A DNA stretch of 64,000 nt, taken from Roseomonas gilardii subsp. gilardii (GTDB lineage Bacteria; Pseudomonadota; Alphaproteobacteria; Acetobacterales; Acetobacteraceae). Numbering within the stretch: the stretch's first letter is position 1; the number at the start of each line of letters is the position of its first letter. The stretch spans positions 3,092,501 to 3,156,500 of the forward strand of contig NZ_CP095554.1 in the NCBI RefSeq assembly GCF_023078375.1, read 5' to 3'. The notes under the pieces were generated by a model, which saw nothing but the letters and a program-made list of their open reading frames with translations, was not told the DNA's origin and did not search any database. The translations under genes were made by a program, and so were the position numbers. Shown here piece by piece: positions 16,244 to 57,458 of the stretch.

Positions 16244-16373
16244 GGGAATACTCCTCGTCGTTCCGTGGAACCGGAGGCGGGACACCCTGGCCCCATCCTC
16301 CGCCTGCCGGGAAAAACGAACGGCATGGCCCAGGGTTGTGGCCCCGGCCATGCCCGGTCCCATGGGTCCGGCC

Positions 16374-29352: not shown

Positions 29353-29384
29353 GTGCCGTATTCGCGCCTGTGCGCTGACGGCAC
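29353..29384. promoter_or_regulatory. Dyad element copy A, upstream of the recombinase operon
   Basis: Outer arms GTGCCGT (29353-29359) and ACGGCAC (29378-29384), inner arms GCGC (29364-29367) and GCGC (29372-29375). It lies 86 bases before the start of the 104-residue gene. It sits in a 50-base stretch that matches 42 of 50 bases around copy B (55906-55937), and the outer arms differ between copies by a paired change. Confidence 0.6.
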
Positions 29385-31753: not shown

Positions 31754-32439
31754 TGGCTCATCTCCCGCGACCATGAGATTGCGTTGACGTAGATGCCAAG
31801 CGGATTGGCGCGCAGCCGTCCGGCGTCGCGCGGCGGCTGGAGTACGACGGTCAGGATCGCGGTCCATCGCTCGGTGCTGCCGAGCTGGCCATTCTCGTAA
31901 TGGCGCTCCGTCCAGGCCACGCGGAAACTGTCCGGCGAGGCGCGGATGACGCTCGACACCTCGACGGCGATCTGCTGCCGGCCGACACGGGTGAACGGAT
32001 CGTTGGCGCGGGCATAGTCGTTGAGCGCCGCCGCGCCACGATCGGTGGTGAACTCATAGGCGCGAAGCCAGTTCTGCCGGACGATGATCGGATCGGCCGG
32101 GATCGCGCGGACCTGCTCGATGAAGCGGCCGAGATGGAAGGCGATCTGCGGATCGGTCGGGCGATAATCGGCGGTCGCGGGCGCGACGGTCTGCGCCTGC
32201 CCGAGATTATCCACCTGCACGACCCACGGCACGACAGTCCCGCGCGCCGATTGCCAGACAAGGGCGGACGCGAAGCCGGCCGACAGGATCAGCGATCCGA
32301 AGGCCATGAGCCGCCAGTTCTTCGCCTGCACGCGGGCCGAGCCGATGCGCTCGTCCCAGACCTGCGCGGCCTTCTGATAGGGTGTCTCGGGTTCCGGCGT
32401 CTTGCCGTAATGGGTCGATGGTCGTTTGAAGATGCTCAT
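31750..32439 (-). CDS. trbF: Conjugal transfer protein TrbF (VirB8-like)
   Basis: A 229-residue VirB8-type inner-membrane protein. One N-terminal helix (LMAFGSLILSAGFASALVWQ) is followed by a periplasmic NTF2-like domain (NWLRAYEFTTDRGAAALNDY, GSTERWTAILTVVLQ). It nucleates assembly of the channel. It overlaps both trbL and trbG by 4 bases. Confidence 0.94.
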   Translation of the reverse strand: MSIFKRPSTHYGKTPEPETPYQKAAQVWDERIGSARVQAKNWRLMAFGSLILSAGFASALVWQSARGTVVPWVVQVDNLGQAQTVAPATADYRPTDPQIAFHLGRFIEQVRAIPADPIIVRQNWLRAYEFTTDRGAAALNDYARANDPFTRVGRQQIAVEVSSVIRASPDSFRVAWTERHYENGQLGSTERWTAILTVVLQPPRDAGRLRANPLGIYVNAISWSREMSQ

Positions 32440-33809: not shown

Positions 33810-33812
33810 GGA

Positions 33813-34100
33813 TCACTGCCCCTCGGTCTGAGGTGGGGCGGCCGGCGCGGGCGTGCGGCCAAGGAAGCGGTCGCGCGACTCCGCCCATGCGGCGAGGCAG
33901 GACGGATCACCCGTCGCCGCCTCGCCGAGCCGCTGGCAACGGCGAAGCGTCGCGCGCAGCGGATCGGCGGGCGATTGCAACGCCGGCGCGGTGCTGGCGG
34001 GCGCGGGATCGTCCTTGCGGGTCATCTCGATCACCGTGGCGGTGATGGCGATGGCGACGAATACAACGGCCGCAATCCGGGCCAGCATCTTGCCGTCCAT
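33813..34100 (-). CDS. Putative entry-exclusion protein TrbK (TrbK-alt type)
   Basis: A 95-residue protein with one N-terminal membrane helix (IAAVVFVAIAITATVIEM) and a small C-terminal region with two cysteines (LRRCQRLG, SCLAAWAESRDRF). Position between trbJ and trbL matches TrbK, which blocks entry of a second copy of the element into the cell. Sequence conservation in this family is low, so the call rests on position and layout. Confidence 0.8.
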   Translation of the reverse strand: MDGKMLARIAAVVFVAIAITATVIEMTRKDDPAPASTAPALQSPADPLRATLRRCQRLGEAATGDPSCLAAWAESRDRFLGRTPAPAAPPQTEGQ

Positions 34101-34119
34101 GGGCGGCCCCTCCCTTGGG

Positions 34120-34893
34120 TCAGTTGTTGCCGTTGCCAAACATGCGGGCATTGCCCGGCTGGTAGCCGGCGCCCGGCGTGAGGAAGCGGCGGCGCTGTTC
34201 GCGGCCCTGCTCGGCGGCGGTCGCGCGTTCGGCCCCGGTCAAGGCGTCGGAGCGGCCATTGGCGGCGAGCATGGCGATCAGGTCGGAAAGCTGCTGCGAC
34301 TGGAGCGCAAGGATCTGATTGCCGGCCTGCGTTGCCTGCAAGGCGCCGGTCGCGCCCTGGCTCCGGCCGATCAGCGCGGCCATTTCGGTGCGGTTGGTGT
34401 CGATATTGCCGACGACGCCGGCCTGCACCTTCATCGCGTCCTGCAAGCCGCCCACGGTATTTTGCCAGCGCGTGCGCGCGTCGCTGACGAGCTGCTGGTC
34501 GGTCGCGGACAGCGAGACGTTGCCATATTGGCGCTGAAACGCCTGGTCGATCTGCCCGACATCGAAGGCGATGTTCTGTGCCTGTTGAAGCAGGCTCTGC
34601 GTGCGCTGGACGGACTGCTGAAGCTGCTGGAGCGAGGAATATGGCAGGCTCGCGAGATTGCGGGCCTGATTGATGAGCATCGTCGCCTCGTTCTGAAGGC
34701 TCTGAATCTGGTTGTTGATCTGCTCCAGCGTGCGCGCGGCGGTGAGCACGTTCTGCACATAGTTGGAGGGGTCATAGACGACCCATTGCGCATGGGCCGG
34801 GCTGGTCAGCATCGGCGACAGCGAGACCGGCGCGGCCAGCGCGAGGGCGAGCAGCGACGCGCCCGCGATACGGGGAAGACGAATATGGATCAT
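34120..34893 (-). CDS. trbJ: Conjugal transfer protein TrbJ (VirB5-like)
   Basis: A 257-residue exported protein. The signal peptide ends at SPAHA-QW, and the mature part is helical with Gln-rich coiled coils (ARTLEQINNQIQSLQNEATM, LQQLQQSVQRTQSLLQQAQN). TrbJ/VirB5 proteins are minor pilus components needed for mating pair formation. The start at 34893 overlaps the trbE stop by 4 bases. Confidence 0.93.
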   Translation of the reverse strand: MIHIRLPRIAGASLLALALAAPVSLSPMLTSPAHAQWVVYDPSNYVQNVLTAARTLEQINNQIQSLQNEATMLINQARNLASLPYSSLQQLQQSVQRTQSLLQQAQNIAFDVGQIDQAFQRQYGNVSLSATDQQLVSDARTRWQNTVGGLQDAMKVQAGVVGNIDTNRTEMAALIGRSQGATGALQATQAGNQILALQSQQLSDLIAMLAANGRSDALTGAERATAAEQGREQRRRFLTPGAGYQPGNARMFGNGNN

Positions 34894-37382
34894 GGAAGGG
34901 ATTCCTCTGCTGTGGGTGTGTCGAGCCGGGCCGGCGCGGCGGACTCCGCCCGGTCGGCAAGGTTGATGAGATCGGGGATCAGGTCGGCCGCCCAATCGAC
35001 GCCGCGCAGGCGCAGCCATGCGGCGAGGAAGCCGTCGCGGCCGTGCTCGGCGAGAAGATCGGCGATCAGGGTCTGGTCGGATTTGGCGGATGCGGCGCAG
35101 AGCGCGAGGCCGACTTCGGACAGGCCCAGCTCGAACAGACGATTGCCGCGCCGCGACTGGCAGTAATAGTCCCGCTTGGGCGTCGCCCGCGCGAGGATTT
35201 CAATCTGGCGGTCATTGAGGCCGAAGCGGCGATAGATCGCCGTGATCTGTGGCTCGATCGCCCGCTCGTTCGGCAGCAGGAGCCGCGTCGGACAGCTCTC
35301 GATAATCGCGGGCGCGATGTTGCTGCCGTCGATGTCGGAAAGCGACTGCGTGGCGAAGATGACGGATGCGTTCTTCTTGCGCAGCGTCTTCAGCCATTCG
35401 CGGAGCTGGTTCGCGAACCCCTCGTCGTCCAGCGCCAGCCAGCCCTCGTCGATGATGAGCAGCGTGGGCCGCCCGTCGAGCCGATCACCGATCCGATGGA
35501 ACAGATAGGCCAGCACGGCCGGAGCCGCGCCGGTCCCGACCAGCCCCTCGATCTCGAACGCCTGCACGTCCGCCGATCCGAGATATTCGGTCTCTGCGTC
35601 GAGCAGCCGGCCATAGGCACCGCCGACGCAGAACGGTCGGAGCGCCTGCTTCAGATCGTTGGATTGCAGCAGCACCGCGAGGCCGGTGATGGTGCGCTCG
35701 CCGACAGGCGCGGAGGCGAGAGAGGTCAACGCGGTCCAGAGATGTTCCTTCACCTCCGGCGTGATGGTGATGCCCTCACGCATGAGGATGGAGGCGATCC
35801 AGTCCGCCGCCCAGGCACGTTCATAGGTGTCGTGGATGCGGGCGAGCGGCTGGAGGGAGACGGACGCCTCGTCGCCTTCGGTCAGCCCGCCGCCCAGATC
35901 ATGCCAGTCGCCGCCCATGGCGAGCGCGGCGGCACGGATCGAGCCGCCGAAGTCGAAGGCGAACACTTGGCTGGCCGCATAGCGGCGGAACTGCAAGGCC
36001 ATCAGGGCCAGCAGCACGGATTTGCCCGCGCCGGTCGGGCCGACGACAAGGGTGTGGCCCACGTCGCCGACATGAAGGGATAACCGGAACGGGGTGCTTC
36101 CCTCGGTCTTGCCATAGAGCAAGGGGGGCGACCCGAAGTGCTCATCCCGTTCCGGCCCCGCCCACACCGCCGAAAGCGGGATCATGTGGGCGAGATTCAA
36201 GGTGCTGATCGGCGGCTGGCGGACATTGGCGTAGGCGTGGCCCGGAACGCTGCCGAGCCAGGCATCGACCGCGTTGACGGTTTCCGGCATGGCGGTGAAG
36301 TCGCGACCCTGAATGATCTTCTCGACCAGGCGCAACTTCTCGTCAGCCATGCGGGGATCGGCGTCCCACACCGTCACGGTCGCGGTGACATAGGCCATGC
36401 CCGCCACGTCCGCGCCGAGTTCCTGCAACGCCATGTCGGCGTCGAGCGCCTTGTTGGACGCGTCGGTATCGACGAGCGCCGACGCCTCGTTGGTCATCAC
36501 CTCCTTGACGATGGCCGCGATCGACTTGCGCTTGGCGAACCATTGCCGCCTGATTTTGGTCAGCAGCTTCGTGGCGTCGGTCTTGTCGAGCAGGATCGCG
36601 CGGGTGCTCCACCGATAGGGGAACGGGAGCCGGTTCATCTCGTCGAGCAGGCCGGGCGTCGTCGCGGTCGGGAAGCCGATAATGGTGAGGACGCGCAGAT
36701 GCGCGTCGCCAAGACGCGGCTCCAGCCCGCCGGTCAGCGGCTGGTCGGCCAGTAGCGCGTCCAGATACATCGGCACTTCCGGCACGCGGACGCGATGCCG
36801 GTTCGTGGATACCGTCGAATGGAGATAGGTCAGCGTGCCGGCGTCATCGAGCCAGCGGCATTCCGGCATGAAGCCGTCGAGCAGCGCCAGCACGCGGTGG
36901 GTGCGGTCGATGAAGCTGCGCAGTAATTCGTGGGGGTTCACGCCCGATTGCTCGCGGCCCTCATAGAGCCAGCTTTCCGCGCGGGCGGCTTCCTCGGCGG
37001 GCGGCAACCAGAGGAAGGTCAGGAAATAGCCCGACACGAAATGCGTCCCGGCTTCCTCGAAATCGGCCTTGCGCTCGGCGTCGAGCAAGGCCGATGCGGG
37101 ATCGGGGAACAGGCTGTCGGGATAGGTCGCGGCTTCGCTGCGCTGCGCCTCGACGAAGATGCTCCAGCCGGAGCCGAGACGGCGCACGGCGTTGTTGATA
37201 CGTCCGGCGACGGCGACCAGCTCGGCCGCGACGGCGGAATCCAGATCAGGGCCGCGAAACTTCGCGGTGCGTTGGAACGAGCCGTCCTTGTTCAAGACGA
37301 CGCCGGAGCCGGCCAGCGCGACCCAGGGCAGATAGTCGGCCAGCCGCGTGGCGGTGCGGCGATATTCGGCGAGATTCATCAT
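34890..37382 (-). CDS. trbE: Conjugal transfer ATPase TrbE (VirB4-like)
   Basis: An 830-residue VirB4-family ATPase that powers pilus assembly and substrate transfer at the inner membrane. Walker A is VVGPTGAGKSVLLAL (about residues 444-458), and Walker B is LLIIDEGWLALDD (about 640). The sensor-like QSLSDIDGSNIAPAIIES follows. The length is normal. The start has two adjacent ATG codons. It overlaps trbJ by 4 bases and lies 14 bases after trbD. Confidence 0.96.
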   Translation of the reverse strand: MMNLAEYRRTATRLADYLPWVALAGSGVVLNKDGSFQRTAKFRGPDLDSAVAAELVAVAGRINNAVRRLGSGWSIFVEAQRSEAATYPDSLFPDPASALLDAERKADFEEAGTHFVSGYFLTFLWLPPAEEAARAESWLYEGREQSGVNPHELLRSFIDRTHRVLALLDGFMPECRWLDDAGTLTYLHSTVSTNRHRVRVPEVPMYLDALLADQPLTGGLEPRLGDAHLRVLTIIGFPTATTPGLLDEMNRLPFPYRWSTRAILLDKTDATKLLTKIRRQWFAKRKSIAAIVKEVMTNEASALVDTDASNKALDADMALQELGADVAGMAYVTATVTVWDADPRMADEKLRLVEKIIQGRDFTAMPETVNAVDAWLGSVPGHAYANVRQPPISTLNLAHMIPLSAVWAGPERDEHFGSPPLLYGKTEGSTPFRLSLHVGDVGHTLVVGPTGAGKSVLLALMALQFRRYAASQVFAFDFGGSIRAAALAMGGDWHDLGGGLTEGDEASVSLQPLARIHDTYERAWAADWIASILMREGITITPEVKEHLWTALTSLASAPVGERTITGLAVLLQSNDLKQALRPFCVGGAYGRLLDAETEYLGSADVQAFEIEGLVGTGAAPAVLAYLFHRIGDRLDGRPTLLIIDEGWLALDDEGFANQLREWLKTLRKKNASVIFATQSLSDIDGSNIAPAIIESCPTRLLLPNERAIEPQITAIYRRFGLNDRQIEILARATPKRDYYCQSRRGNRLFELGLSEVGLALCAASAKSDQTLIADLLAEHGRDGFLAAWLRLRGVDWAADLIPDLINLADRAESAAPARLDTPTAEESLP

Positions 37383-37396
37383 GGTGGCGCTCCCCG

Positions 37397-37678
37397 TCAG
37401 ACCGCCAGATGACCGGGGATGCGGAGATGCCGCCGCCCGACCTCGACGAATTGGGGATCGCGCTTGGCCGCCCAGACCGCCGCGACATGGCCGATGGCCC
37501 AGATGGCGATGCCGACCAGCCAGAGGCGCAGGCCGAGGCCGACAGCCCCGGCCAGCGTTCCGTTGAGGATCGCGAGCGAGCGCGGCGCGCCGCCGAGCAG
37601 GATATGCTCGGTCAGCGCCCGGTGGACCGGGACGGTGAAGCCCGGCACCGCGTCCAGTTGTTCGAGGCCGCCCGCCAT
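37397..37678 (-). CDS. trbD: Conjugal transfer protein TrbD (VirB3-like)
   Basis: A 93-residue VirB3-type membrane protein: VPVHRALTEHILLGGAPR at the N-terminus is typical, and two adjacent helices follow (LNGTLAGAVGLGLRLWLVGI, AIWAIGHVAAVWAA). Its start codon shares one base with the trbC stop (TGATG), so it is translationally coupled. Confidence 0.92.
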   Translation of the reverse strand: MAGGLEQLDAVPGFTVPVHRALTEHILLGGAPRSLAILNGTLAGAVGLGLRLWLVGIAIWAIGHVAAVWAAKRDPQFVEVGRRHLRIPGHLAV

Positions 37679-38010
37679 CAGATGAGCGCCCCGCCGCCGA
37701 ACGAGAAGAACGACAGGAAGAAGCTCGACGCTGCGAAGGCGATGCTGAGGCCGAACACGATCTGGATCAGGCGACGAAAGCCGCCCGACGTGTCGCCGAA
37801 GGCCAGCGTCAGGCCGGTGGCGATGATGATGATGACGGCGACGATCTTGGCGACCGGCCCCTCGATCGACTGGAGGATGGATTGCAGCGGCGCTTCCCAC
37901 GGCATCGACGATCCCGACGCATGGGCGGCCGGAGCGATCATGAAGCTGATGACGAGGGTGGAAGCGGCGGTCGCGGCGACGCGATAGCCGCGCGAGAGGG
38001 TGCGGATCAT
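37678..38010 (-). CDS. trbC: Conjugal transfer pilin TrbC (VirB2-like)
   Basis: A 110-residue pilin precursor. A long signal (VAATAASTLVISFMIAPAAHA) is followed by two hydrophobic helices (VAKIVAVIIIIATGLTLAFG, LIQIVFGLSIAFAASSFFLS). The TraF peptidase in this ICE would mature and possibly cyclise it, as in RP4. It overlaps trbB by 4 bases. Confidence 0.93.
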   Translation of the reverse strand: MIRTLSRGYRVAATAASTLVISFMIAPAAHASGSSMPWEAPLQSILQSIEGPVAKIVAVIIIIATGLTLAFGDTSGGFRRLIQIVFGLSIAFAASSFFLSFFSFGGGALI

Positions 38011-38990
38011 GAAAGTTCTCCTGTGCTGGTGAGGGTTGCGGGGGTGGTTCGGTAGTCGCCGTCGGGTCCCAGCCCTTCGACGCGGGCGAGTTCGGCCAGC
38101 CGGCGGGCGGAACCGCGACCGGCGAGGACGGCAACAAGGTCGATCGTCTCGGCGATCAGCGCGCGCGGGACGGTGACGACGGCTTCCTGAATGAGCTGTT
38201 CGAGACGGCGCAGCGCGCCGATGCCGGTTCCGGCGTGGATGGTGCCGATCCCGCCGGGATGGCCGGTGCCCCAGGCTTTGAGCAGGTCGAGGGCTTCCGC
38301 GCCGCGCACCTCGCCGATGGGGATGCGATCGGGACGCAGGCGCAGCGAGGAACGGACCAGATCGGAAAGCGTCGCCACACCGTCCTTGGTTCGCATGGCG
38401 ACGAGGTTGGGCGCGGCGCATTGCAGCTCGCGCGTGTCCTCGATGATGACGACGCGTTCCTGCGTCTTCGCCACCTCGGCCAGCAGCGCATTGGTGAGCG
38501 TCGTCTTGCCGGTGCTGGTGCCGCCCGCGACAAGGATGTTGGCGCGGGACGCGACGGCTTCGCGGAGTGTCGCGGCCTGATCGGCGGACATGATGCCGGC
38601 GGCCACATAGTCATCGAGCGTGAACACTGCGACGGCGGGCTTGCGGATGGCGAAGGCTGGCGCGGCAACCACGGGAGGCAGCAGCCCCTCGAACCGCTCG
38701 CCGGATTCAGGCAGTTCAGCCGAGACGCGCGGGCTGCGGGCGTGAACCTCCGCGCCGACATGATGGGCGACCAGACGCACGATGCGCTCGCCATCGGCGG
38801 GTGACAGGGTTTCGCCGGTGTCGGACAGCCCTTCTGACAGGCGGTCGATCCACAACCGCCCGTCCGGGTTCAGCATCACCTCGACCACGGCCGGGTCTTC
38901 CAGAAAGCGGGAGATCGCCGGCCCCAATGCTGTGCGCAGCATCCGCGCGCCGCGTGCGATGGCTTCGGGTCTATGGTGGCTGGCAGTCAT
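38007..38990 (-). CDS. trbB: Conjugal transfer ATPase TrbB (VirB11-like)
   Basis: A 327-residue VirB11/TrbB secretion ATPase. Walker A is [20 protein letters not shown] (about residue 154), the Asp box is [11 protein letters not shown], and Walker B/His boxes include [19 protein letters not shown] and [12 protein letters not shown]. It is the first gene of the trb operon. Its upstream region (38991-39135) holds a 23-base element also found upstream of traG. Confidence 0.95.
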
Positions 38991-39105
38991 ATCGGCCCCG
39001 TTTCCTGACGGGGCGTGACAGATGGTCCCCGGATCGGGGTCGATTAAAAGAGCCTGAAATCAGGCCGGTTCAACACCTATCGAAGTGCGTGCGGGGAACG
39101 GCGGC

Positions 39106-39128
39106 CATCGGCGGTGAATAGGACGGGT
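39106..39128. promoter_or_regulatory. Shared 23-base element, copy upstream of trbB
   Basis: The bases CATCGGCGGTGAATAGGACG plus GGT match 21 of 23 bases at 41687-41709, upstream of traG. Both lie 80-140 bases before a transfer-operon start, in the same orientation. It is a candidate promoter or regulator site. Confidence 0.5.
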
Positions 39129-39135
39129 CGGATAT

Positions 39136-39597
39136 TCAGCCGGGATCGCCATTCGTCTCGGACCCGTCTGGAGCAAGACCATCGGGTGCCGACTCCACGT
39201 CGCGCGAAAGCTCTTTCAGGAACCTGTCTCCACTCGCGAGCCGTTTGCCGAGCGTCTGCATGAAACGCTCGAACCGTTCGGCTCCCTTGGCGCGGGCGCT
39301 GGCCTGCGCGCTTTCCGGCAGCGGCGGCGTGGAAGCCAGCCAGATGTTGACGAACAGCGAGACGGTCTCGCCGAGCACGGCGAGATCTTCGTCGAGCGTC
39401 CCGATCTGGCGGCCGAGCCGGTCGAGCCGACGCGACATGGCCGCTTCCAGCTTCTCGCTGGTGTCGCCGGACAGGAAGGACGCGACGGCCGCTTCGACGA
39501 TGGCGGATTTCGAGATGTTCCGACGCAGCGCCAGCGCCTCCACCTGTTTGAGCAAGGCCGGGTCGAAATAGACGTTCATGCGGGTGCGGGTCGTCAT
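39136..39597 (-). CDS. CopG/ribbon-helix-helix family protein
   Basis: A 153-residue protein with an N-terminal ribbon-helix-helix (MNVYFDPALLKQVEALALRR, NISKSAIVEAAVASFLSG) and a helical C-terminal part. In trb-type ICEs a CopG protein sits between traG and trbB, as here. It may regulate transfer genes or assist relaxosome contact. It follows traG by 10 bases, so the two are in one operon. Confidence 0.88.
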   Translation of the reverse strand: MTTRTRMNVYFDPALLKQVEALALRRNISKSAIVEAAVASFLSGDTSEKLEAAMSRRLDRLGRQIGTLDEDLAVLGETVSLFVNIWLASTPPLPESAQASARAKGAERFERFMQTLGKRLASGDRFLKELSRDVESAPDGLAPDGSETNGDPG

Positions 39598-39607
39598 GGC
39601 GCGGTCC

Positions 39608-41590
39608 TCAAAGCTCGATGCCGTCGCCGGGATCGAGGGACGCCTGCCGGGCGACCATCCGCATCCGGGCGCGCATCGCATTGGCCTTGGCGGCGTCCAC
39701 ATCGGGTTCCTCGTCCAGCGGCTCGAACTCCTGAGTGGGCGATGGTGGAGGCGGGATGATTTCTTCATGTTCGGGCAATTCCGGCTCGCGGCGGATACCG
39801 GCATTGGCGGGATCGCCATCGCCGTCGCTTGCGGTGCCGCCGATGGACGGTTCCGCCGCCGCGACGATGCGTGCGGACCAGTCGTCCGACGATGCGGCCA
39901 CCGCGACCGTCGCGAGTGTCGGCGGGGTCAGGATGCGCTCCTGCAATCGCCTGTCCTCGAAATAGCGGGCCTTGGTCGCGCGGATCGGCGGCGTTCCCGC
40001 TACCATGACGATTTCCTCTGAGGGCGGGAGCTGCATGATCTCGCCGGGGGTGAGCAGCGGCCGCGCCGTCTCCTGGCGCGACACCATCAGGTGCCCCAGC
40101 CAGGGCGCGAGCCGGTGGCCGGCATAGTTGGTGGAATCGCGCATCTCGGTCGCGGTGCCGAGCGAGTCCGACACGCGCTTGGCGGTGCGCTCATCATTGG
40201 TGGCGAAGGCGACGCGCACATGGCAGTTGTCGAGAATGCTGTTGTTCGGCCCATAGGCGCGCTCGATCTGGTTGAGCGATTGGGCGATCAGGAAGCTCTT
40301 GAGGCCGTAGCCTGCCATGAAGGCGAGCGCGGACTCGAAGAAGTCGAGCCGGCCGAGCGCCGGAAATTCGTCCAGCATCAACAGCAGCCGATGGCGCTTG
40401 CCGGAGGTGGTCAGTTCCTCGGTCAGCCGCCGGCCGATCTGGTTGAGGATCAGGCGGATCAGCGGCTTGGTGCGGTTGATGTCGGATGGCGGCACGACAA
40501 GGTAGAGGCTGACCGCGCGTTTGCTCCCGACCAGATCGGCAATGCGCCAGTCGCAGCGCGCGGTGACGCGCGCCACGACGGGATCGCGATAGAGGCCGAG
40601 AAACGACATGGCGGTGGACAGCACACCCGACCGTTCGTTCTCGCTCTTGTTCAGCAGCTCACGCGCCGATGATGCGATGACCGGATGAACGCCAGCTTCG
40701 CCGAGATGCGGCGTGTCCATCATCGCGCGCAAGGTCGCCTCGACCGGGCGGCGCGGATCGGACAGGAAGTTGGCGACGCCCGCCAGCGTCTTGTCCTTCT
40801 CGGCATAGAGAACATGCAGGATCGCGCCGACCAGCAGCGAATGCGAAGTCTTTTCCCAATGGTTGCGCTTGTCGAGACTGCCTTCGGGATCGACCAAAAT
40901 ATCCGCGATGTTCTGCACGTCGCGGACCTCCCATTCGCCCTGCCGCACCTCCAGCAGCGGATTGTAGGCTGACGATTTCACATTGGTCGGATCGAACAGC
41001 AGGACGCGGCCATGCTGCGCGCGGAAGCCCGCCGTCAGCGTCCAGTTCTCGCCCTTGATGTCGTGGATGATGCAGCTTCCCGGCCAGGTGAGCAGCGTCG
41101 GGACGACGAGGCCGACGCCCTTGCCGCTGCGGGTGGGTGCGAAGCACAACACATGCTCCGGCCCGTCATGGCGCAGATAGTCCCGGTCGAATTTGCCGAG
41201 CACCACGCCATCGGGACCGAGTAGGCCGGCGGCGCGGATTTCCCTGTCCTCTGCCCATCGCGCAGAACCGTAGGTCGCGACATTGCGCGCCTCCCGCGCG
41301 CGGATGATCGACATGAGGATGGCGGCGGCGATGGCGACAAGCCCTCCGGACGCGGCGATGATCGCGCCTTCGGTGAAGATCGCGGGCGCATAGGCGTCGA
41401 AGGAAAACCACCACCAGAAGAAGGCCGGCGGATAATACAACGGCAGGCCGGCCGCCTCGAACCATGGTGCGCCAAGCTGGGGCTGGAAGCCGAGCCGCCA
41501 GGCCGTCCATTGCGTCGCCGCCCATGTCATCACCACAACGATGGTCAGGACGACGGTGATCTGACCCCAGAGGATTCGGCCTCCACGCAT
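39608..41590 (-). CDS. traG: Conjugal transfer coupling protein TraG (VirD4-like)
   Basis: A 660-residue type IV coupling protein that brings the relaxase-DNA complex to the channel. Two N-terminal membrane helices (VVLTIVVVMTWAATQW, GLVAIAAAILMSIIRA) precede the ATPase. Walker A is CFAPTRSGKGVGLVVPTLLT (about residue 150), and Walker B is LLMLDEFPALGRLDFFESAL (about residue 400). The ATG at 41590 is the common family start (MRGGRILWGQ); 41608 adds six residues. Its upstream region carries the 23-base element shared with trbB. Confidence 0.95.
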   Translation of the reverse strand: MRGGRILWGQITVVLTIVVVMTWAATQWTAWRLGFQPQLGAPWFEAAGLPLYYPPAFFWWWFSFDAYAPAIFTEGAIIAASGGLVAIAAAILMSIIRAREARNVATYGSARWAEDREIRAAGLLGPDGVVLGKFDRDYLRHDGPEHVLCFAPTRSGKGVGLVVPTLLTWPGSCIIHDIKGENWTLTAGFRAQHGRVLLFDPTNVKSSAYNPLLEVRQGEWEVRDVQNIADILVDPEGSLDKRNHWEKTSHSLLVGAILHVLYAEKDKTLAGVANFLSDPRRPVEATLRAMMDTPHLGEAGVHPVIASSARELLNKSENERSGVLSTAMSFLGLYRDPVVARVTARCDWRIADLVGSKRAVSLYLVVPPSDINRTKPLIRLILNQIGRRLTEELTTSGKRHRLLLMLDEFPALGRLDFFESALAFMAGYGLKSFLIAQSLNQIERAYGPNNSILDNCHVRVAFATNDERTAKRVSDSLGTATEMRDSTNYAGHRLAPWLGHLMVSRQETARPLLTPGEIMQLPPSEEIVMVAGTPPIRATKARYFEDRRLQERILTPPTLATVAVAASSDDWSARIVAAAEPSIGGTASDGDGDPANAGIRREPELPEHEEIIPPPPSPTQEFEPLDEEPDVDAAKANAMRARMRMVARQASLDPGDGIEL

Positions 41591-41686
41591 ACAGGCTCCA
41601 ATCGGCAAAAATGTCGGAGCCGATCAGAGAATGGCGGTTTTCGGAAGGTGCAACAGGCGAAACGTGGACGGAGGGGTGCCGGATAG

Positions 41687-42661: not shown

Positions 42662-42868
42662 TGATGTCGAACGCCGCCGCATCGCTATGTGCCTCCTTGA
42701 AATGGAGACGGCTGCTGTCGCGCTGGTCCCTGTTTATGGACTGGCTGATGCGAATTGCATCGCGAGGAGTCGACGAAATCGCCAAGGACACGCTCGGTCA
42801 GGGCGATGAAATCCGCACTATCAGCACTATGAACAACGATGCGAAGCATCGAACACGTCAGCCTCGCC

Positions 42869-45470: not shown

Positions 45471-45475
45471 CGCGC

Positions 45476-47181: not shown

Positions 47182-47231
47182 GCCGGTTCCTTGAAATCAA
47201 CGGTATGGGGAAATCGGTTGTCGGCTGATCG

Positions 47232-47921: not shown

Positions 47922-47934
47922 GGCGAGGTCTCCT

Positions 47935-49137: not shown

Positions 49138-49157
49138 TTGTTCCTGTCCTCAGCCCT

Positions 49158-49535: not shown

Positions 49536-49553
49536 AAGGGATGACAAAAGCAC

Positions 49554-49638: not shown

Positions 49639-51693
49639 CTAAATCCCCAGTCCCCTCTGCCGCCCCAACTGCCACGACACCGATCCACCCTGCACGACGC
49701 CCATGACCTCACGGCCGAGCTGACGGTCGATGACGGGCCGCCACGGAACGAGCGTGAACTCGTGGCTCTGCTCGACCATGGCGAACTTGCCGCTGGAGAG
49801 CTGCACCGTGCCGGTGAACTTGCCGCTGACCGTCTCGCCGTCCTTTGTCGCGCGGAACGGCAGCCCCTTGGTCGCAGCGATCTCTCCGCCGACGCGGGCG
49901 ACCTCGCGCTCGCGCAGGGTGGCAAGAAGGTTGCGGCGATAGGCGATGCTGCCATTGGGCTGGCGGGCCGCATCTCCACGGTCGATGTGGTGCTCGCGGC
50001 GGCGGTCCATCGCGTCGCGGACCTGCTGACCGAAGCCGGAGGGCGCGAGATCCGATGTCTCGGCCGAGACCATCCGCCGATCGAGCCAGGTCGCACCATC
50101 CGCGCCGATCTGCTGTTCGAGGCGGGGGACCGAGAGGATGCGGATATTGGCCTGCCGGTTGCGGCCGGCGTCATAGGCGGCGGCGCGGCTCTCGAAGTCT
50201 TGCGGGATACGCCATTGGTCGGCGTCGATCCGCTCGACGATGCCGGCGCGGCGCAAGGCCTCCAGCCGGCGAACATGAGCATCGACATAGCCCTGATAGT
50301 CGCCGCCCGGAACGCGCCCCTCAAATTTGGCCTGCTCCAGATGGCGGCTCGGCCGATAGGCGCCGCCCTCGGCGATGGCGGCAATCGCGCGGTCGGAGGG
50401 ACGGCTTGCCGTATCGGGCGGCCCGATCTCGACGACGCTGCCGATCCGCGCGTCCGCGACGCGGGCGGGGTCGATCCCGGCGACATGGTGGGTGCGGCCG
50501 TCGATCCCGTCCACCACGAGGGTCAGGTTCTCGCCCAGCTCGTCGGTCAGATATTTGTCCACCACGCGGCCGGTGATCGGGATTTCGGGCGCGGCGTCGT
50601 GAATCTGGAAGGTCATCGGATCGCGCTCCAGGCCATCGGCTTTCAGCGCCTTGTGCATGGTGCGGATGATGTCGCCGCGCTCGCCCATTTCGCGCAGGGT
50701 CGGTTCCATCCGCGCGCTCATTTCCCAGACACCAGGCGCGTGCTCGGTGGCGAGGCCCATCTTCTCCAGCCTGGCGAGACGGCGGAGGCGGAGCGTCCGG
50801 TTGAACTGCCGCTGCGCGTCGGCCGGCTCATGGCGTAGATCGAGGAAGCGGTCTTCGGCTTCTTCGGTCATGGCGCGGTCGATGCGGGTGAAGCGGTCCT
50901 GGCCGATCTCGGCGGACAGCTTGCGGCTCTGCTCTATCTCGGTGACGGGGCCAAGCTCCAGCGTCGTCAACTCACTCGCCCGCTCGCGGATACCGTTGGC
51001 GAGATAGTCGCCGTTGATGACAAGGTTCTCGCCCATGTCGTCCTTGCCGCGCACGATGACATGGACATGGGGATGGCCGGTATTGTGGTGATTGACCGCG
51101 ACCCAATCGAGCTTCGTGCCGAGGTCGGCTTCGACCCGGCTCATCAGGTCGCGGGTGTGTTCGGTCAGGTCGGTCAGGTCCGCGCCGTCCTCCGGCGAGA
51201 CGATGAACCGGAACTGGTGGCGATCGTCCGCGCCGCGCTCGACGAAGGCTGCGCCATCCGCGCGATCCTCGGTCGCGGAATAGAGCTGGCCGCGCTCGCC
51301 GTCGCGCGAGGTGCCGTTGCGCTGGATATAGCGCAGATGGGCGGCGGATTTCCCGTTCCGGCCCGCGCCCTGAACATAACGGGTCTTGACGACGACGCGG
51401 CGCATTCCCGGCGCGCTGTGTTTCCAACCGCCCGACAGCGCGCGGGCGCGCACGAAGGTCGCGCCGCGCCCGCGCTTGAGGCCCGGCCCGCCGCTCGTTC
51501 GCGCGGCCTTGCCGCCCTTGGCGGTTGCCGACGATCTGGGGCGCGGCGTGGATGACCGTGACGGGCTGTTGCTATGCTGGCGGGCGAGCTTCTTCGCCTG
51601 CGTGAGAAAGCTCTTCGCCTTGCCGAGCCTGGGGGCATCGGCGCGGATGCGGCCGGGTCTGGGACGAAAGCGGTTCTCGTCGTCGGCGCTCAC
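49639..51693 (-). CDS. Relaxase/mobilisation nuclease with DUF3363 domain (RlxS-like)
   Basis: A 684-residue VirD2/RlxS-type relaxase. A basic, Ser/Pro-rich N-terminus is followed by the relaxase core with the three-His metal site: VNHHNTGHPHVHVIVRG (about residues 195-212). The DUF3363 C-terminal region includes DLAPSGFGQQVRDAMDRRRE. It nicks oriT, stays bound to the 5' end and pilots the strand through TraG. The start is a GTG at 51693. It is the last gene of the excisionase-to-relaxase operon. The 313-base gap upstream of it holds the candidate oriT. Confidence 0.93.
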   Translation of the reverse strand: MSADDENRFRPRPGRIRADAPRLGKAKSFLTQAKKLARQHSNSPSRSSTPRPRSSATAKGGKAARTSGGPGLKRGRGATFVRARALSGGWKHSAPGMRRVVVKTRYVQGAGRNGKSAAHLRYIQRNGTSRDGERGQLYSATEDRADGAAFVERGADDRHQFRFIVSPEDGADLTDLTEHTRDLMSRVEADLGTKLDWVAVNHHNTGHPHVHVIVRGKDDMGENLVINGDYLANGIRERASELTTLELGPVTEIEQSRKLSAEIGQDRFTRIDRAMTEEAEDRFLDLRHEPADAQRQFNRTLRLRRLARLEKMGLATEHAPGVWEMSARMEPTLREMGERGDIIRTMHKALKADGLERDPMTFQIHDAAPEIPITGRVVDKYLTDELGENLTLVVDGIDGRTHHVAGIDPARVADARIGSVVEIGPPDTASRPSDRAIAAIAEGGAYRPSRHLEQAKFEGRVPGGDYQGYVDAHVRRLEALRRAGIVERIDADQWRIPQDFESRAAAYDAGRNRQANIRILSVPRLEQQIGADGATWLDRRMVSAETSDLAPSGFGQQVRDAMDRRREHHIDRGDAARQPNGSIAYRRNLLATLREREVARVGGEIAATKGLPFRATKDGETVSGKFTGTVQLSSGKFAMVEQSHEFTLVPWRPVIDRQLGREVMGVVQGGSVSWQLGRQRGLGI

Positions 51694-53337: not shown

Positions 53338-53895
53338 TCAGCGTGGCGTGGTGCCGGTGGGTGCGCGCCACTCGTAGCGGCCGTCGCTTTCCTCATCGGT
53401 CCAGAGCGGGATGGCCCGGCCGATGACGGAAGCGGCCGGGACAGGACCGAAATAGCGGCCGTCGAGACTGTCGCGGACCTGCCAGTTCATCAGGAAAAGC
53501 TCGCCCTCGGCGATGATGCGGCAGCCCTGCCAGACGGGCAGATCGCGGCCGCTTCGATCGCGGTCGAGCGCCTCGCCCAGCTCGACGCCATCGACCGTGA
53601 TCGTGGCGCGCAGGCGGCACACCCGCTGCCCCGGCAGGCCGGCGACGCGCTTCAGCAGCGGCACGCCGCGCCCGATATAGCCGCGCTCGACCATGAAGGC
53701 GGCGAGCGGTTCGGGCGGCATGATGGCGACCAGCTCCGGCACGTCGATCCGCTCGGCCGGCTCGATCGTGTAGAAGCCGATGGGCGCGCTGGCGGTGGCG
53801 TTCCAGACCAGTTTCGTGGGCGTCGGGATCAGCGCGGCGACGCCGATGCCCATCGCGGTGAAATACGTCACCATGACGTAGCCGAAGCGCGTCAT
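53338..53895 (-). CDS. traF: S26-family signal peptidase TraF
   Basis: A 185-residue TraF-type peptidase. One N-terminal membrane helix (VMVTYFTAMGIGVAALIP) is followed by the catalytic Ser in WNATASAPIGFYTIEP and the Lys in VPLLKRVAGLPGQRVC. In RP4, TraF processes the TrbC pilin. The ATG at 53895 overlaps the DUF2840 stop by 4 bases. Confidence 0.93.
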   Translation of the reverse strand: MTRFGYVMVTYFTAMGIGVAALIPTPTKLVWNATASAPIGFYTIEPAERIDVPELVAIMPPEPLAAFMVERGYIGRGVPLLKRVAGLPGQRVCRLRATITVDGVELGEALDRDRSGRDLPVWQGCRIIAEGELFLMNWQVRDSLDGRYFGPVPAASVIGRAIPLWTDEESDGRYEWRAPTGTTPR

Positions 53896-54410
53896 GGCTC
53901 GATCCTCCGGCGGCCGATCCACGCGGCATGGCGCGCCGGCGTGTAGGTGTTCGGTTCCAGCCCGGCGACAAGCCGGTTGTGGACGTGCCGCCAGTAATCG
54001 GGCGAGGCGTCGGCCGGATCGAGGCCGAGCGCTTCCACGGCGTCGATGGCGGCAAGCGCGCGGTGCACCTTCGCCCAGCTATCGAGACGCAGCAGAATGT
54101 CGCCGCCCGGACGGACGAAGGGCAGCGTCTGGAACGGCTCGCCGCGACCGATGGCGCGCACGATGTCGATGCGCGAGATGATCGTGCCGTGCTCGCCGGC
54201 CGCCCAGCGGACGAAGGCGAATATGCTGTCCGGCGCGAAGCCGACGACGCTGCGGCGACGGTCGAGGATCTGTTCGTAGCTCTTGCGGCCGAACCTGATC
54301 CAGTGCTCGATCTTCTGCTTCTGGAAGGTCAGCTCGACCAGGGTGGTGAAGGGCGCGGGTCCGTTCGGCTGCGGCCGGCCGTGCGCGCGGCGGGGGGCTT
54401 TGCCGCTCAT
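53892..54410 (-). CDS. DUF2840 domain-containing protein
   Basis: A 172-residue DUF2840 protein (TLVELTFQKQKIEHWIRFGR, RRRSVVGFAPDSIFAFVRWA). It is found only in this ICE/plasmid context, between repA and traF, and its function is unknown. It overlaps repA by 4 bases and traF by 4 bases, so it is tightly coexpressed. Confidence 0.9.
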   Translation of the reverse strand: MSGKAPRRAHGRPQPNGPAPFTTLVELTFQKQKIEHWIRFGRKSYEQILDRRRSVVGFAPDSIFAFVRWAAGEHGTIISRIDIVRAIGRGEPFQTLPFVRPGGDILLRLDSWAKVHRALAAIDAVEALGLDPADASPDYWRHVHNRLVAGLEPNTYTPARHAAWIGRRRIEP

Positions 54411-55543
54411 GGCCGCTTCCCCCAATCGCCGGCATCGTCACCGCGAGCCATGTCGCGCAGCACCTCGGCGACGGACCTTGCGGCACTGGCACCACGTTTC
54501 GCGCGCGCGTGCGCCTCAGAAGAAAAGTTAGAGTCTCTGTTAGACTCTAAGTTAGCAGTCGGATTCTGCGTTTCGTTCCAGAGGCTTAACTGCGGTTCGT
54601 GCGCCCGAAATCCCGATAGGGCTGCGCCCGAAGTCCCGATACCCTTTGCGCCCGAAGTCACGAGCGTTTCCACAGGGTTTTCCACAGGCACTGTGGATAG
54701 ATTTCCGGGCCGGATTTGCAGCAGTTCGCGCCGCCCGTCGCGGTGAATATCGAGGCGGTAGCCGAGCAGGGATTGCCGGGCGGCGATGCGGCGCAGGTCG
54801 AGCGCGAAATCGGAAATCCGCGCCATGCTGCCGGATTTCGCGTGCAGGTGGGCGATCTCGAACAGCCAGCCATGCGGCTGGTGTCCAGCGTGTTTGCGGG
54901 CGACGCGATACAGCCAGCGTTCGATGCCCCCGGTCAGCCGGAAATAGGCCGGGTCGATCGCCAGCACGAGCGAGCGATCGGTGACGCCGCGATAGAACCA
55001 GTCGGGCAGGACGAACTCCATGCCCCCGACGCGGCCGTCACGGGTGGTCAGTTCCTCCCATTCGTTGATCCATGAGAACTGGTGCCGCCGCCAATGCTCG
55101 CCCTGCCGGATCGTGGTGCGGATCGAGGTGGATTGCAGCCGGATCAGCGCGTTCTTCAGCAGGCGGTATTCGCGCGCGCCGGTGGCGCGGCCGATCGCCA
55201 TGAGAAGCTGATAGGGCGTGAAGCGGAAGAACCGCGACGTGCGCAGGCCCTCGTTCTCGGCCGCGACGATCTGCGAGGCGGCCCAGATCAGCACATCAGC
55301 ATCCCAGATGGTCGCCATGCCGTAATCGGCCATGCCGAAGACCTCGACGCGGACGCCGCCGGATTCGTAGAGGATCGGCGCGGTGCGCTTCGCCTTGGCG
55401 AGCGAGAAGAACGGGCGCTCCATCAGGTCGCGTTGATCGCGTGGGCTGGCGTCGCCGGTCGCGACCACGAAAGGCGCGAGACGGCTGCGCTCGCTGGCGT
55501 CGGACGGCTGCGCGGCGGGGCGATGATCGTCATCGTGCAGCAT
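54407..55543 (-). CDS. repA: Replication initiator protein RepA
   Basis: A 378-residue replication initiator of the RepA (initiator protein A) family: FFSLAKAKRTAPILYESGGV near the N-terminus, MATIWDADVLIWAASQIVAA, and the winged-helix region (FTPYQLLMAIGRATGAREYR, ALIRLQSTSIRTTIRQ). Many ICEs replicate briefly after excision, and this protein would start that. Its 3' third holds three direct repeats and DnaA-box-like sequences, a possible origin. It starts directly after the AlpA-like gene. Confidence 0.9.
   Translation of the reverse strand: MLHDDDHRPAAQPSDASERSRLAPFVVATGDASPRDQRDLMERPFFSLAKAKRTAPILYESGGVRVEVFGMADYGMATIWDADVLIWAASQIVAAENEGLRTSRFFRFTPYQLLMAIGRATGAREYRLLKNALIRLQSTSIRTTIRQGEHWRRHQFSWINEWEELTTRDGRVGGMEFVLPDWFYRGVTDRSLVLAIDPAYFRLTGGIERWLYRVARKHAGHQPHGWLFEIAHLHAKSGSMARISDFALDLRRIAARQSLLGYRLDIHRDGRRELLQIRPGNLSTVPVENPVETLVTSGAKGIGTSGAALSGFRAHEPQLSLWNETQNPTANLESNRDSNFSSEAHARAKRGASAARSVAEVLRDMARGDDAGDWGKRP
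54528..54550. repeat. Perfect palindrome inside repA
   Basis: TTAGAGTCT (54528-54536) and AGACTCTAA (54542-54550) with a 5-base loop. It is unusually AT-rich for its surroundings and lies about 50 bases from the iteron-like repeats. Confidence 0.5.
54601..54700. other. Candidate replication origin: iteron-like repeats and DnaA boxes
   Basis: Three direct repeats with the core GCGCCCGAARTC begin at 54601, 54624 and 54648 (spacing 23 and 24 bases). Directly after them come TTTTCCACA (54678-54686) and, inverted, TGTGGATAG (54692-54700), each one base from the DnaA box TTATCCACA. The repeats also code for a TSGA-type peptide repeat in RepA, so a coding origin is the alternative. Confidence 0.5.
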
Positions 55544-55816
55544 TCAGCACTCGCCCCGCTCTTGCGGCGTCAACGGGCGGGCGGGAAAGACCGTGCCGGC
55601 GTCGGGATCGCGGGTGGATTTGCGGGTGCCGATGTCGGACCAGGCTTCCAGATCGCGGATGGCGTAGAGGACACGGCCGCCGATCTTCTTGTAGGTCGGG
55701 CCGGTGCCGTAGGTGCGGTGCTTCTCAAGGGTGCGGATCGAAATGCCGAGGAAGCGTGCGGCTTCCTGAGTGCGCAGCAGGCGCGGCGGCATATCCGCGT
55801 TGGGGCGGATGGCCAT
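55544..55816 (-). CDS. AlpA-like helix-turn-helix protein, probable excisionase (RdfS-like)
   Basis: A 90-residue protein with a MerR/AlpA-type helix-turn-helix (LLRTQEAARFLGISIRTLEK, RTYGTGPTYKKIGGRVLYAI). Such proteins act as recombination directionality factors. In ICEMlSymR7A the equivalent, RdfS, heads the same operon (…traF…rlxS) and drives excision. GGAGG precedes the ATG. It is 1 base upstream of repA. Its own upstream region holds dyad element copy B. Confidence 0.85.
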   Translation of the reverse strand: MAIRPNADMPPRLLRTQEAARFLGISIRTLEKHRTYGTGPTYKKIGGRVLYAIRDLEAWSDIGTRKSTRDPDAGTVFPARPLTPQERGEC

Positions 55817-55905
55817 GGATCACCTCCAGGTTCGTCGGTTGATGCGGCTGCCGGTGACGGCAGCGCGCTACGGCGAACCATGGCGAGCGATCGGCGAGCG
55901 GTAGC

Positions 55906-55937
55906 GTGCCGCATTTGCGCCTACGCGCTGGCGGCAC
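55906..55937. promoter_or_regulatory. Dyad element copy B, upstream of the excisionase operon
   Basis: Outer arms GTGCCGC (55906-55912) and GCGGCAC (55931-55937), inner GCGC at 55917-55920 and 55925-55928. It lies 90 bases before the AlpA-like start. Copy A (29353-29384) has GTGCCGT and ACGGCAC with the same 18-base spacing, so the one base that differs in the arm is compensated on the other side. Confidence 0.6.
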
Positions 55938-56014
55938 CCCGGCCGTTTGGAAGGGAATGCTGGTGTGATGGGGTGGCGTGATCGGCCGCGCGGCCGAGGG
56001 GCGAAGCGCGCCGA

Positions 56015-56236
56015 CTATTTCGGCGCGATCGTCTTTTTCAACAGATCGCCCGGCTCGATCTCCAGGGCATCGGCGATCTGGCCGAGAACCGTGACGCTGG
56101 CGGACACGTCACCACGCTCGATGGCCCCGACATAACGCATGCTGAGGCCCGCCCGATCGGCGAGTTCTTCTTGCGTCAGTTGTTTGTCATGACGTGCCCG
56201 ACGCAGATTCCTCGCCATGATCTCCTTGAGATCCAT
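56015..56236 (-). CDS. XRE-family repressor (QseC-like)
   Basis: A 73-residue Cro/C1-type protein: the helix-turn-helix is KQLTQEELADRAGLSMRYVG, followed by AIERGDVSASVTVLGQIADA. It is divergent from a small DUF2285-type gene and separated from it by 133 bases that hold two dyad operators. In ICEMlSymR7A, QseC is a small repressor divergent from qseM that sets an on/off switch for transfer. The similarity in layout suggests the same role here. Confidence 0.85.
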   Translation of the reverse strand: MDLKEIMARNLRRARHDKQLTQEELADRAGLSMRYVGAIERGDVSASVTVLGQIADALEIEPGDLLKKTIAPK

Positions 56237-56254
56237 GGTGCGAGGGGAACCAGC

Positions 56255-56289
56255 ATAGGAACGATCCTTCTAGGAATGATCGTTCCTAT
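56255..56289. promoter_or_regulatory. Two adjacent operators between the XRE and DUF2285 genes
   Basis: ATAGGAACGATC (56255-56266) and GATCGTTCCTAT (56278-56289) form a 12-bp dyad. It also reads as two overlapping-spaced sites of the form AGGAAYGATC(G)TTCCT, centred on GATC at 56263-56266 and 56278-56281, 15 bases apart; the second is the better dyad. A strong and a weak operator is the arrangement reported for QseC. Confidence 0.6.
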
Positions 56290-56369
56290 TCGTGTCGCGA
56301 CATGTTATTGATCGGGTTTGCCGGACTTGCTTCATTGCGTCCGCGTCTTCGATGATGAGGGCAAGATTC

Positions 56370-56672
56370 ATGCGTGGGCGACCGCCGCTCGATCCAGATG
56401 TGGAAGATGAAGCGCCGGGCGGCTCCAGCATCAGCGCCTATGACGAAGAGCATTACGTCACCTATCTGCGCCTTCTCGACGCGTGTCGCGACGGCGCGGA
56501 CTGGCGCGAGGTGGCGCGTATCGTCCTGCACCGTGATCCTGTCGCGGACGAAGCACGCAGCCGGCGATGCTGGGAAAGCCATCTGGCGCGCGCACAATGG
56601 CTGTCGAGCGCGGGTTACAGGCAGATTCTCGAACAGGCGGTGGCGACCGCGACTACGGGCAACCGGGCCTAG
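56370..56672 (+). CDS. Small DUF2285-type protein (QseM-like antiactivator)
   Basis: A 100-residue protein with the sequence YDEEHYVTYLRLLDACRDGA and ADWREVARIVLHRDP, then HLARAQWLSSAGYRQIL, as in the C-terminal part of DUF2285 proteins. In ICEMlSymR7A a protein of this kind, QseM, binds and blocks the activators TraR and FseA. GAGGG lies 9 bases before the ATG at 56370; the frame is open back to 56292. It is divergent from the XRE repressor gene and converges with the DUF2285 activator gene, overlapping it by 4 bases. Confidence 0.72.
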   Translation: MRGRPPLDPDVEDEAPGGSSISAYDEEHYVTYLRLLDACRDGADWREVARIVLHRDPVADEARSRRCWESHLARAQWLSSAGYRQILEQAVATATTGNRA

Positions 56673-57265
56673 GAATCCTTGTCAGGCGGCTTGATCGGAT
56701 AGTGCAGCAGCAGCCGATAGCCGCCGCGCATCATCCTGATGCCATGGGCAACCAAGCGACGGGCCTTGTTCTTGCTGGGATCGACCTCGAAATCCTCTTT
56801 CGTGCCTTGGAAGCCGAGTAGGACCTGGGCGATGGCGCGATAGCTCTCGCCGCGCAGGCGTGCATCGAGCGCGCGCAGGGAGAGGATGTGCCATTGCCGG
56901 AGTTGGGCGGGCAGCGCGCGGAAATCTGGTCCGGCCGGGCGTCCGGTGAGCGCGCGCCAGAGTCGGCGCGTGGCATGGGCGCGCAGTTCGAGAAAGGCAT
57001 CCATTGGCAGCGACGCGGCATAGAAGGCCGCAGCGTCGGGGACGGCATGCGGCAGCCAGAATTGATGCACTACGCCGTCCGCCTGCCAGATACCGTGCCA
57101 GCCATCCGCTGCGCTGCGCAGGTCGAGACCGCCCAGATGAGCGAGCGTGACGACCGGCTGCGCGCCGTCGTCACCATGCTCCACAAGGGAGAGCATGATC
57201 GCCTGCGGTTGGAGGCTCGGCGTCCAGAACAGCGACTGCCGATCGGAAGGGGTGTCGGGGTCAGT
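56669..57265 (-). CDS. DUF2285 domain, 3' part of a frameshifted FseA-like activator
   Basis: This frame codes for a DUF2285 region: DPDTPSDRQSLFWTPSLQPQ, then LPMDAFLELRAHATRRLWRA, QLRQWHILSLRALDARLRGE and VLLGFQGTKEDFEVDPSKNK. It has no convincing start of its own near its beginning; the first internal ATG is at 57196. It continues the DUF6499 frame if the ribosome moves +1 at TTT-CCC-GAC-TGA (57261-57272). The joined protein would be 262 residues (64 from the first frame, 198 from this one). FseA of ICEMlSymR7A is made this way and activates the excisionase gene. Confidence 0.82.
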   Translation of the reverse strand, partial: TDPDTPSDRQSLFWTPSLQPQAIMLSLVEHGDDGAQPVVTLAHLGGLDLRSAADGWHGIWQADGVVHQFWLPHAVPDAAAFYAASLPMDAFLELRAHATRRLWRALTGRPAGPDFRALPAQLRQWHILSLRALDARLRGESYRAIAQVLLGFQGTKEDFEVDPSKNKARRLVAHGIRMMRGGYRLLLHYPIKPPDKDS

Positions 57266-57272
57266 CGGGAAA
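57261..57272 (-). other. Candidate +1 programmed ribosomal frameshift site
   Basis: Coding strand TTT-CCC-GAC-TGA. A proline tRNA slipping from CCC to CCG, with the stop two codons on, moves the ribosome into ACT-GAC-CCC of the DUF2285 frame. The two domains are always partners, and the frames meet exactly at the expected domain joint. An indel error is the alternative. Confidence 0.6.
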
Positions 57273-57458
57273 TCGCAGCCCCCAGCGTTGCACGAAGGCG
57301 TCGAGGCGTTCCGGGTTTGGATCGTGCGCCGTCGTGATGGCCCGATATTCGCGGCGATACTCGTCGTCGCGGCGGAGATATTCCCAGGCGAAGCCGGCAG
57401 CAGGGATGCCCTTGGCAAATTTGTATGCCGCCGGAGAACGCCAGTCGATGCTCAGCAT
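57261..57458 (-). CDS. DUF6499 (transcriptional-regulator-like) domain, 5' part of the FseA-like activator
   Basis: A 65-codon frame with the typical DUF6499 sequence: DWRSPAAYKFAKGIPAAGFA, WEYLRRDDEYRREYRA, and VQRWGLRFP before the stop. Alone it makes a short protein; with a +1 shift just before the TGA it continues into the DUF2285 frame. Single-frame homologues that run RWGLRFP straight into a DPD segment are what I would expect in related elements. The AT-rich stretch at 57570-57610 may hold the promoter. Confidence 0.85.
   Translation of the reverse strand: MLSIDWRSPAAYKFAKGIPAAGFAWEYLRRDDEYRREYRAITTAHDPNPERLDAFVQRWGLRFPD

Follow-up and report, generated by a model that had tools for sequence, protein, structure and literature searches.

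A stretch of 64,000 nucleotides from Roseomonas gilardii subsp. gilardii (contig NZ_CP095554.1, positions 3,092,501 to 3,156,500; referred to below as the window, the numbering of which is used throughout) contains a mobile element of 45,541 bp that runs past its right-hand end, and in which genes resembling the FseA/QseM transfer switch of the integrative and conjugative element (ICE) ICEMlSymR7A of Mesorhizobium japonicum R7A are found together with a large serine integrase (Table 1). An inverted repeat having the shape of an FseA-binding site (FseA box) occurs ahead of the rdfS-like gene of the switch and again ahead of a short run of genes that ends with the integrase. This second FseA-box-like promoter is new in this analysis; together with the integrase-linked acidic protein that it precedes, and the question as to the identity of the directionality factor, it goes beyond an earlier interpretation of the same DNA made from its letters (here called the sequence-only reading).

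Table 1 Features of the element, grouped by subject.
Feature	Position	Strand	Remarks
First FseA-box-like inverted repeat	55906..55937		89 bp before RdfS-like gene
Second FseA-box-like inverted repeat, GTGCCG-N20-CGGCAC	29353..29384		85 bp before acidic gene
FseA-like activator (DUF6499 + DUF2285)	56669..57458	-	two frames, +1 register
Frameshift site TGG GGG CTG CGA TTT C	57269..57284	-	overlap of two FseA frames, +1 register
QseM-like DUF2285 protein	56370..56672	+
16-bp-arm inverted repeat	56255..56289		between XRE and QseM; probable operator
XRE repressor, QseC-like by position	56015..56236	-	HTH_3, E 1.4e-12
RdfS/AlpA-like winged helix-turn-helix protein	55544..55816	-
Acidic protein, 104 aa	28953..29267	-	integrase-linked; proposed recombination directionality factor
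Winged helix-turn-helix protein	28545..28931	-	PF25212; stop overlaps integrase start by 4 bp
Large serine integrase	26833..28548	-	Resolvase, Recombinase, Zn-ribbon domains (profile search)
tRNA-Ser (GGA), integration target	26838..26928	+	integrase antisense through tRNA
Left att core CCGCCA	26923..26928		from empty site in relative G003
Right att core CCGCCA	72464-72469 (L006 8464-8469)		from empty site in relative G003
Type IV secretion (trb) run: TrbI, CagX, VirB8, TrbL, TrbE, VirB3, TrbC, TrbB, coupling protein	29634..41608	-	TrbJ/TrbK outside search
Relaxase (DUF3363/Relaxase)	49639..51693	-
TraF-type signal peptidase	53338..53922	-	PF10502; TraF_Ti model score under its cut-off
DUF2840 protein	53892..54425	-
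RepA-like replication initiator	54407..55543	-

The element and its switch genes

The limits of the element come from an empty site in a genome of the same genus (G003), where the flank to the left of the tRNA gene runs straight into the sequence found here from 72464 on. This defines a 6-bp attachment (att) core, CCGCCA, at each end, and the switch and the integrase therefore lie within one element, so that the proposal of the sequence-only reading, that a known control circuit has been joined to an unrelated class of recombinase, holds good for a single delimited stretch. A repeat of the tRNA end had also been considered as the att site, and was rejected: the last 12 to 91 tRNA bases have no second copy in 124 kb of joined sequence, and the empty site gave the 6-bp core instead. 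The locus (L093) around a match at G000:C1:4124936 is without a tRNA.

That reading had recognised four parts of the switch, and profile searches place all four proteins inside the families expected (DUF2285, DUF6499, XRE and AlpA). In the FseA-like gene the first frame (57261-57458, minus strand) matches the Pfam profile PF20109 (DUF6499) with E 4.4e-24 and has AWEYLRRD as its version of the AWEFLRRN-like motif, and the second frame, ending at 56669 on the same strand, matches PF10074 (DUF2285) with E 2.1e-29, its C-terminus (last 110 residues) being positive, at net +10. The QseM-like protein has a lone DUF2285 domain (PF10074, E 8e-7) and no DUF6499; phmmer matches it with E 6.5e-18 to QseM of known structure (chain 7uqt), and its net charge is negative, at -4 (isoelectric point 5.29). 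The same pattern of charges, with a negative QseM and a positive FseA C-terminus, is described for R7A (PMC10359603; here and below, published work is cited from those parts of the text that were available). At the overlap of the two FseA frames, the arrangement TGG GGN ... TTT C is kept in 19 of 19 further FseA loci, and in a wider comparison of the site, for which the scripted choice of the WG codons was wrong in seven rows, one locus (L132) deviates from TTT C. FseA would then be made through +1 frameshifting in the cell.

The RdfS-like protein (HTH_17, E 9e-9; phmmer, E 9.2e-9 to the solved RdfS chain 8dgl) is encoded at the head of the run leading through rep, DUF2840 and traF to the relaxase, the sequence-only reading having already placed it ahead of traF and the relaxase. 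The fourth part is a small helix-turn-helix (HTH) gene divergent from qseM, with what is probably their operator, the inverted repeat at 56255..56289, between them; it is called QseC-like on account of this position. In nine sibling elements no XRE-like frame was seen in the gap from QseM to AlpA (by eye, without an HTH profile), and tblastn with the XRE protein gave a match in only one (L159) of 20 other loci. Six siblings (L142, L143, L147, L148, L150, L156) have a wide gap separating fseA from qseM, and in the five of these that were inspected (L142, L143, L147, L150, L156) the gap contains unrelated frames. In R7A the switch also receives an input from TraR/TraI, whereas none was found here: the genome's single LuxR-type match lies at a distance of 2 Mb, and a search for a synthase of acyl-homoserine lactones, made without a positive control, found none. 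The description of the switch as complete thus stands as far as its four parts in this element are concerned, but does not extend to the quorum-sensing input, nor, for the XRE gene, to the siblings that were checked.

Two copies of an FseA-box-like promoter

The repeat in the rdfS promoter, GTGCCG-N20-CGGCAC, is equivalent to a pair of inverted hexamers (central CG, 16-bp spacer), and inverted hexamers of this kind are the published shape of the FseA box (PMC10359603). If up to two mismatches are allowed the window contains 28 such sites (14.65 expected), of which only the two listed in Table 1 are perfect; there is no further perfect copy from the end of the window to the right end of the element, which makes exactly two in the element as a whole. 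To judge from a partial search of the literature, the FseA box has so far been placed before rdfS only.

For comparison with other elements, 80 loci (1,487,445 bases) were kept from the relatives of the integrase, 399 of which appeared in one scan; these loci are mutually related, and none of the counts over them is a count of independent cases. They contain 33 perfect copies of the repeat, all of which lie 30-120 bp upstream of the start of an acidic gene (starts having been picked by nearness to the alignment), with none elsewhere. About 0.55 copies would be expected by chance from base composition, and 20 shuffled loci yielded none. The copy is present in 28 of the 35 loci with TrbI in reach, and in 5 of the 42 other loci with an acidic gene, one of these five (L015) having a linked FseA. 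All 13 loci with a linked FseA of the main lineage have it and none of seven loci chosen as unlinked does, but this grouping was made after the data had been seen, and three of the ten unlinked genomes were omitted from it: L040, which is without an acidic match, and L023 and L029, which carry the copy and have FseA on other contigs. The repeat is perfect at both promoters in 14 of 18 elements, and of the 20 bases that follow it 12-18 are alike. Elements of a sister lineage have a perfect repeat at rdfS in three cases out of four, and no QseM gene in the stretches of about 6 kb taken from the four.

It might be argued that the second repeat is the site of some other regulator (the RdfS-like protein, the winged helix-turn-helix protein or the integrase as its own regulator), with FseA reaching the integrase only by way of RdfS, as in R7A. 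The RdfS of R7A does bind its own promoter and activate intS (PMC11963761), and the sharing of bases beyond the repeat by both promoters would also be in keeping with this. However, it is the hexamers, spacer and central CG together that agree with the published FseA box, and RdfS, according to PMC11963761, lacks a clear binding motif, so that we regard this explanation as unlikely and prefer to read both repeats as putative FseA sites.

The integrase and the acidic protein

In addition to its three domains and its short (6-bp) att core, which are those of a large serine integrase, the integrase reads antisense through tRNA-Ser(GGA); the sequence-only reading had already put it at tRNA-Ser. 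Its last 31 residues come from the tRNA region, and in the predicted circular form they would be exchanged for another 22 from the other end of the element, giving 562 aa instead of the 571 aa of the integrated form. By scripted detection an antisense tRNA-Ser lies at the end of the integrase gene in 58 of the 80 loci, and the integrase frame enters the tRNA in all 58; this family of tRNA-Ser-targeting serine integrases is found mostly in Alphaproteobacteria.

From the second repeat onwards the order of genes is acidic gene, winged helix-turn-helix gene, integrase. Upstream of the integrase the acidic gene is present in 77 of the 80 loci, the winged helix-turn-helix gene in 47 and TrbI in 35, so that the acidic gene accompanies the integrase with or without conjugation genes. 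The family is of about 100 aa, and an alignment of 38 rows has seven invariant positions and a consensus core VTDDWPExVPVTEAEIxVFERWFGDxFDELFG. When 142 genomes of the class were sampled irrespective of the integrase (that of the window included), four had the acidic gene and five the integrase, and three of the four acidic-gene matches (two of three without the window's own genome) lay directly upstream of an integrase. Among plasmids, 10 of 12 records with the acidic gene also carry the integrase, several being near copies of one another. The winged helix-turn-helix protein had been the main candidate for the directionality factor, and was set aside on the count of 47 loci vs 77; it is more likely an antitoxin, and presumably TumA-like. 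It has no DUF6516 partner here, whereas the corresponding run of plasmid pBH3a consists of a hypothetical (acidic) gene, an annotated DUF6516 gene, the HTH gene and the recombinase; we take TumE/TumA to be the names of the DUF6516/HTH pair.

What favours the acidic protein as directionality factor is that it accompanies the integrase even in the absence of the switch. Over 26 loci the correlation of distances is also highest between integrase and acidic protein (0.89, compared with 0.78 for the winged helix-turn-helix protein and 0.45-0.70 for Trb proteins and DUF2274). The obvious competitor is the RdfS-like protein, which might serve the serine integrase as RdfS serves the tyrosine integrase of ICEMlSymR7A, leaving the acidic protein some other task such as regulating integrase expression. 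Its similarity to RdfS is clear (the match to 8dgl), all 20 FseA stretches that were set against the window contain an AlpA gene (and 19 of them a RepA-like gene), and in phage phiRv1 a winged helix-turn-helix excisionase works with a serine integrase. On the other hand, the integrase and acidic gene occur together in elements without a linked FseA, including three genomes without any DUF6499 match (L047, L048 and L088), although AlpA itself was not searched for there. RdfS is moreover kept on conjugative plasmids, where a regulatory role has been suggested for it (PMC8627217, PMC11963761). A directional role for the RdfS-like protein consequently seems improbable to us, and the acidic protein is retained as the candidate.

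Other genes and the state of the element

Between the coupling protein and the relaxase there is a block of cargo (41720-49553: LysR, molybdopterin oxidase, metallo-hydrolase fold, isochorismatase, major facilitator superfamily transporter, MerR), and at the right end a block of defence genes (L006 53-8328, or 64053-72328 in window numbering) comprising a Fic protein, a SIR2 and short Argonaute pair, and Hachiman HamA and HamB, with HamB split into two overlapping frames. The same genome has a second trb element (L107, G000:C1:352001-372000, at 8700-17050), decayed in appearance, with a lone QseM-like gene (12305-12607), a serine recombinase (15321-17018) that runs into tRNA-Met, and insertion-sequence-like genes between these.

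The split helicase gene hamB and the decayed, insertion-bearing look of the second element could be taken to mean that the present element too is a relic whose switch no longer works. This we think very unlikely, given that all the examined frames of the integrase, secretion proteins, relaxase and switch are open, and that both promoters agree with those of sibling elements.

Occurrence of the pairing

That FseA and a serine integrase occur together in one element is recurrent rather than peculiar to this element. From the 80 loci 28 genomes were selected, mostly for long contigs, and in 17 of the 27 that were examined a DUF6499 gene lies on the contig and strand of the integrase at a distance of 20.6-46.2 kb. 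One more (G052) has it 7.6 kb away on the opposite strand, three have no DUF6499 match, and six have one on a different contig or at a distance of over 100 kb. The joining had been presented in the sequence-only reading as something new, which overstates the case: in addition to the 17 genomes, Colombi 2021 (PMC8627217) lists fseA and rdfS on 56 Mesorhizobium ICEs, one of which has a serine recombinase.

In a tree of FseA (31 rows, rooted for drawing only, and with long-branch warnings of which L134 is foremost), a branch with 98/98 support has on one side all 17 rows linked to a serine integrase, made up of 16 of the 17 linked genes plus the window, together with four others; near one of these four, at 8.7 kb, there is a tyrosine recombinase. 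A label test (treekit) for monophyly of the serine-type FseA needed two changes, with 63 of 500 shuffles as low, there being only three tyrosine-labelled rows. At 50 FseA loci from 15 of these genomes, recombinases within 60 kb (tyrosine threshold E <= 1e-12, contig ends included) were serine only in 14, tyrosine only in 10, both in 4 and none in 22.

Comparison with known elements

With ICEMlSymR7A the element shares an FseA with a +1 frameshift, QseM, a QseC-like gene next to qseM, an RdfS gene that precedes traF and the relaxase, and a trb-type secretion system. It differs in having a serine integrase at tRNA-Ser where R7A has a tyrosine integrase at tRNA-Phe, in that rdfS and traF are separated by RepA and DUF2840 genes, and in the route to the integrase: in R7A rdfS is the target of FseA, and RdfS in turn activates intS (PMC11963761), whereas here a second FseA-box-like promoter precedes the integrase run. 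Non-symbiosis Mesorhizobium ICEs likewise have fseA, rdfS and trb genes, with Rep and DUF2840 between rdfS and traF outside the ICESym group (PMC8627217). The Mesorhizobium serine ICE of that study is, in the text available, counted rather than analysed, its promoters and directionality factor being left unaddressed. ICEAc of Azorhizobium caulinodans is similar in its FseA homologue, nearby XRE gene and lack of traR, but is reported to have a start and a stop codon of its own for each part of FseA, and its XRE protein, RihR, activates intC (PMC9601964). Streptococcal ICEs at rumA also exchange the C-terminal end of their serine integrase on integration, but target a protein gene and have no FseA-type switch described in the available text (PMC4701971).

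A proposed mechanism and its implications

The genes of the element, its boundaries and the two copies of the promoter, together with how far these are conserved and linked, are observed, and they suggest the following scheme. FseA, made at a low level by way of +1 frameshifting, would be held in check by QseM, the level of which would be set by the XRE protein. On release FseA would bind the repeat before rdfS and start the rep-DUF2840-traF-relaxase operon, and would bind the second copy of the promoter module, thereby directly starting an operon of acidic protein, winged helix-turn-helix protein and integrase. The acidic protein would act as recombination directionality factor and switch the integrase over from integration to excision, with the RdfS-like protein retained as a regulator of transfer genes. 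Taken as a whole, a switch wired in this way to a serine recombination module, firing conjugation and integrase operons directly and with the acidic protein rather than RdfS setting direction, seems to us somewhat probable.

A number of observations weigh against it. As regards the promoters, four out of four linked elements of the sister lineage have no second copy before the acidic gene, as have the remaining 7 of the 35 TrbI-bearing loci, and a test for co-adaptation between both boxes of one element gave no sign of it (27.36 of 32 positions alike within elements vs 27.44 between, p 0.69). Likeness to the R7A FseA box was judged by shape, and the published hexamer lies 62-67 before the rdfS start (PMC10359603), as against 89 bp to the end of the repeat here. 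As regards the acidic protein, one genome of the class sample has its gene and no integrase, and the two most distant integrases of that sample (43-45% identity) have no acidic neighbour. The high correlation of distances between integrase and acidic protein may in part come from the nearness of the two genes. The protein has no match in Pfam or PHROGs, and its predicted fold is weak and mostly unstructured (local confidence, pLDDT, 66.5; predicted template-modelling score, pTM, 0.26), the model containing one helix at 66-84, over the core, and another of four residues. Finally, the scheme is drawn from sequence, and from loci that are related to one another.

As to how this arrangement arose, it is possible, and we put it forward tentatively, that FseA-controlled ICEs acquired a module for serine recombination, ahead of which the rdfS promoter was afterwards copied, bringing excision and conjugation in parallel under one frameshift-gated activator, and that large serine integrases have in the acidic family a directionality factor of a new class. 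The element suggests more generally that the logic of a transfer switch can survive the replacement of its recombinase, the rewiring apparently being done by a copy of a promoter. Directionality factors are difficult to recognise from sequence and are in demand for genome engineering, and the acidic proteins provide a candidate family of them for the serine integrases that target tRNA-Ser.

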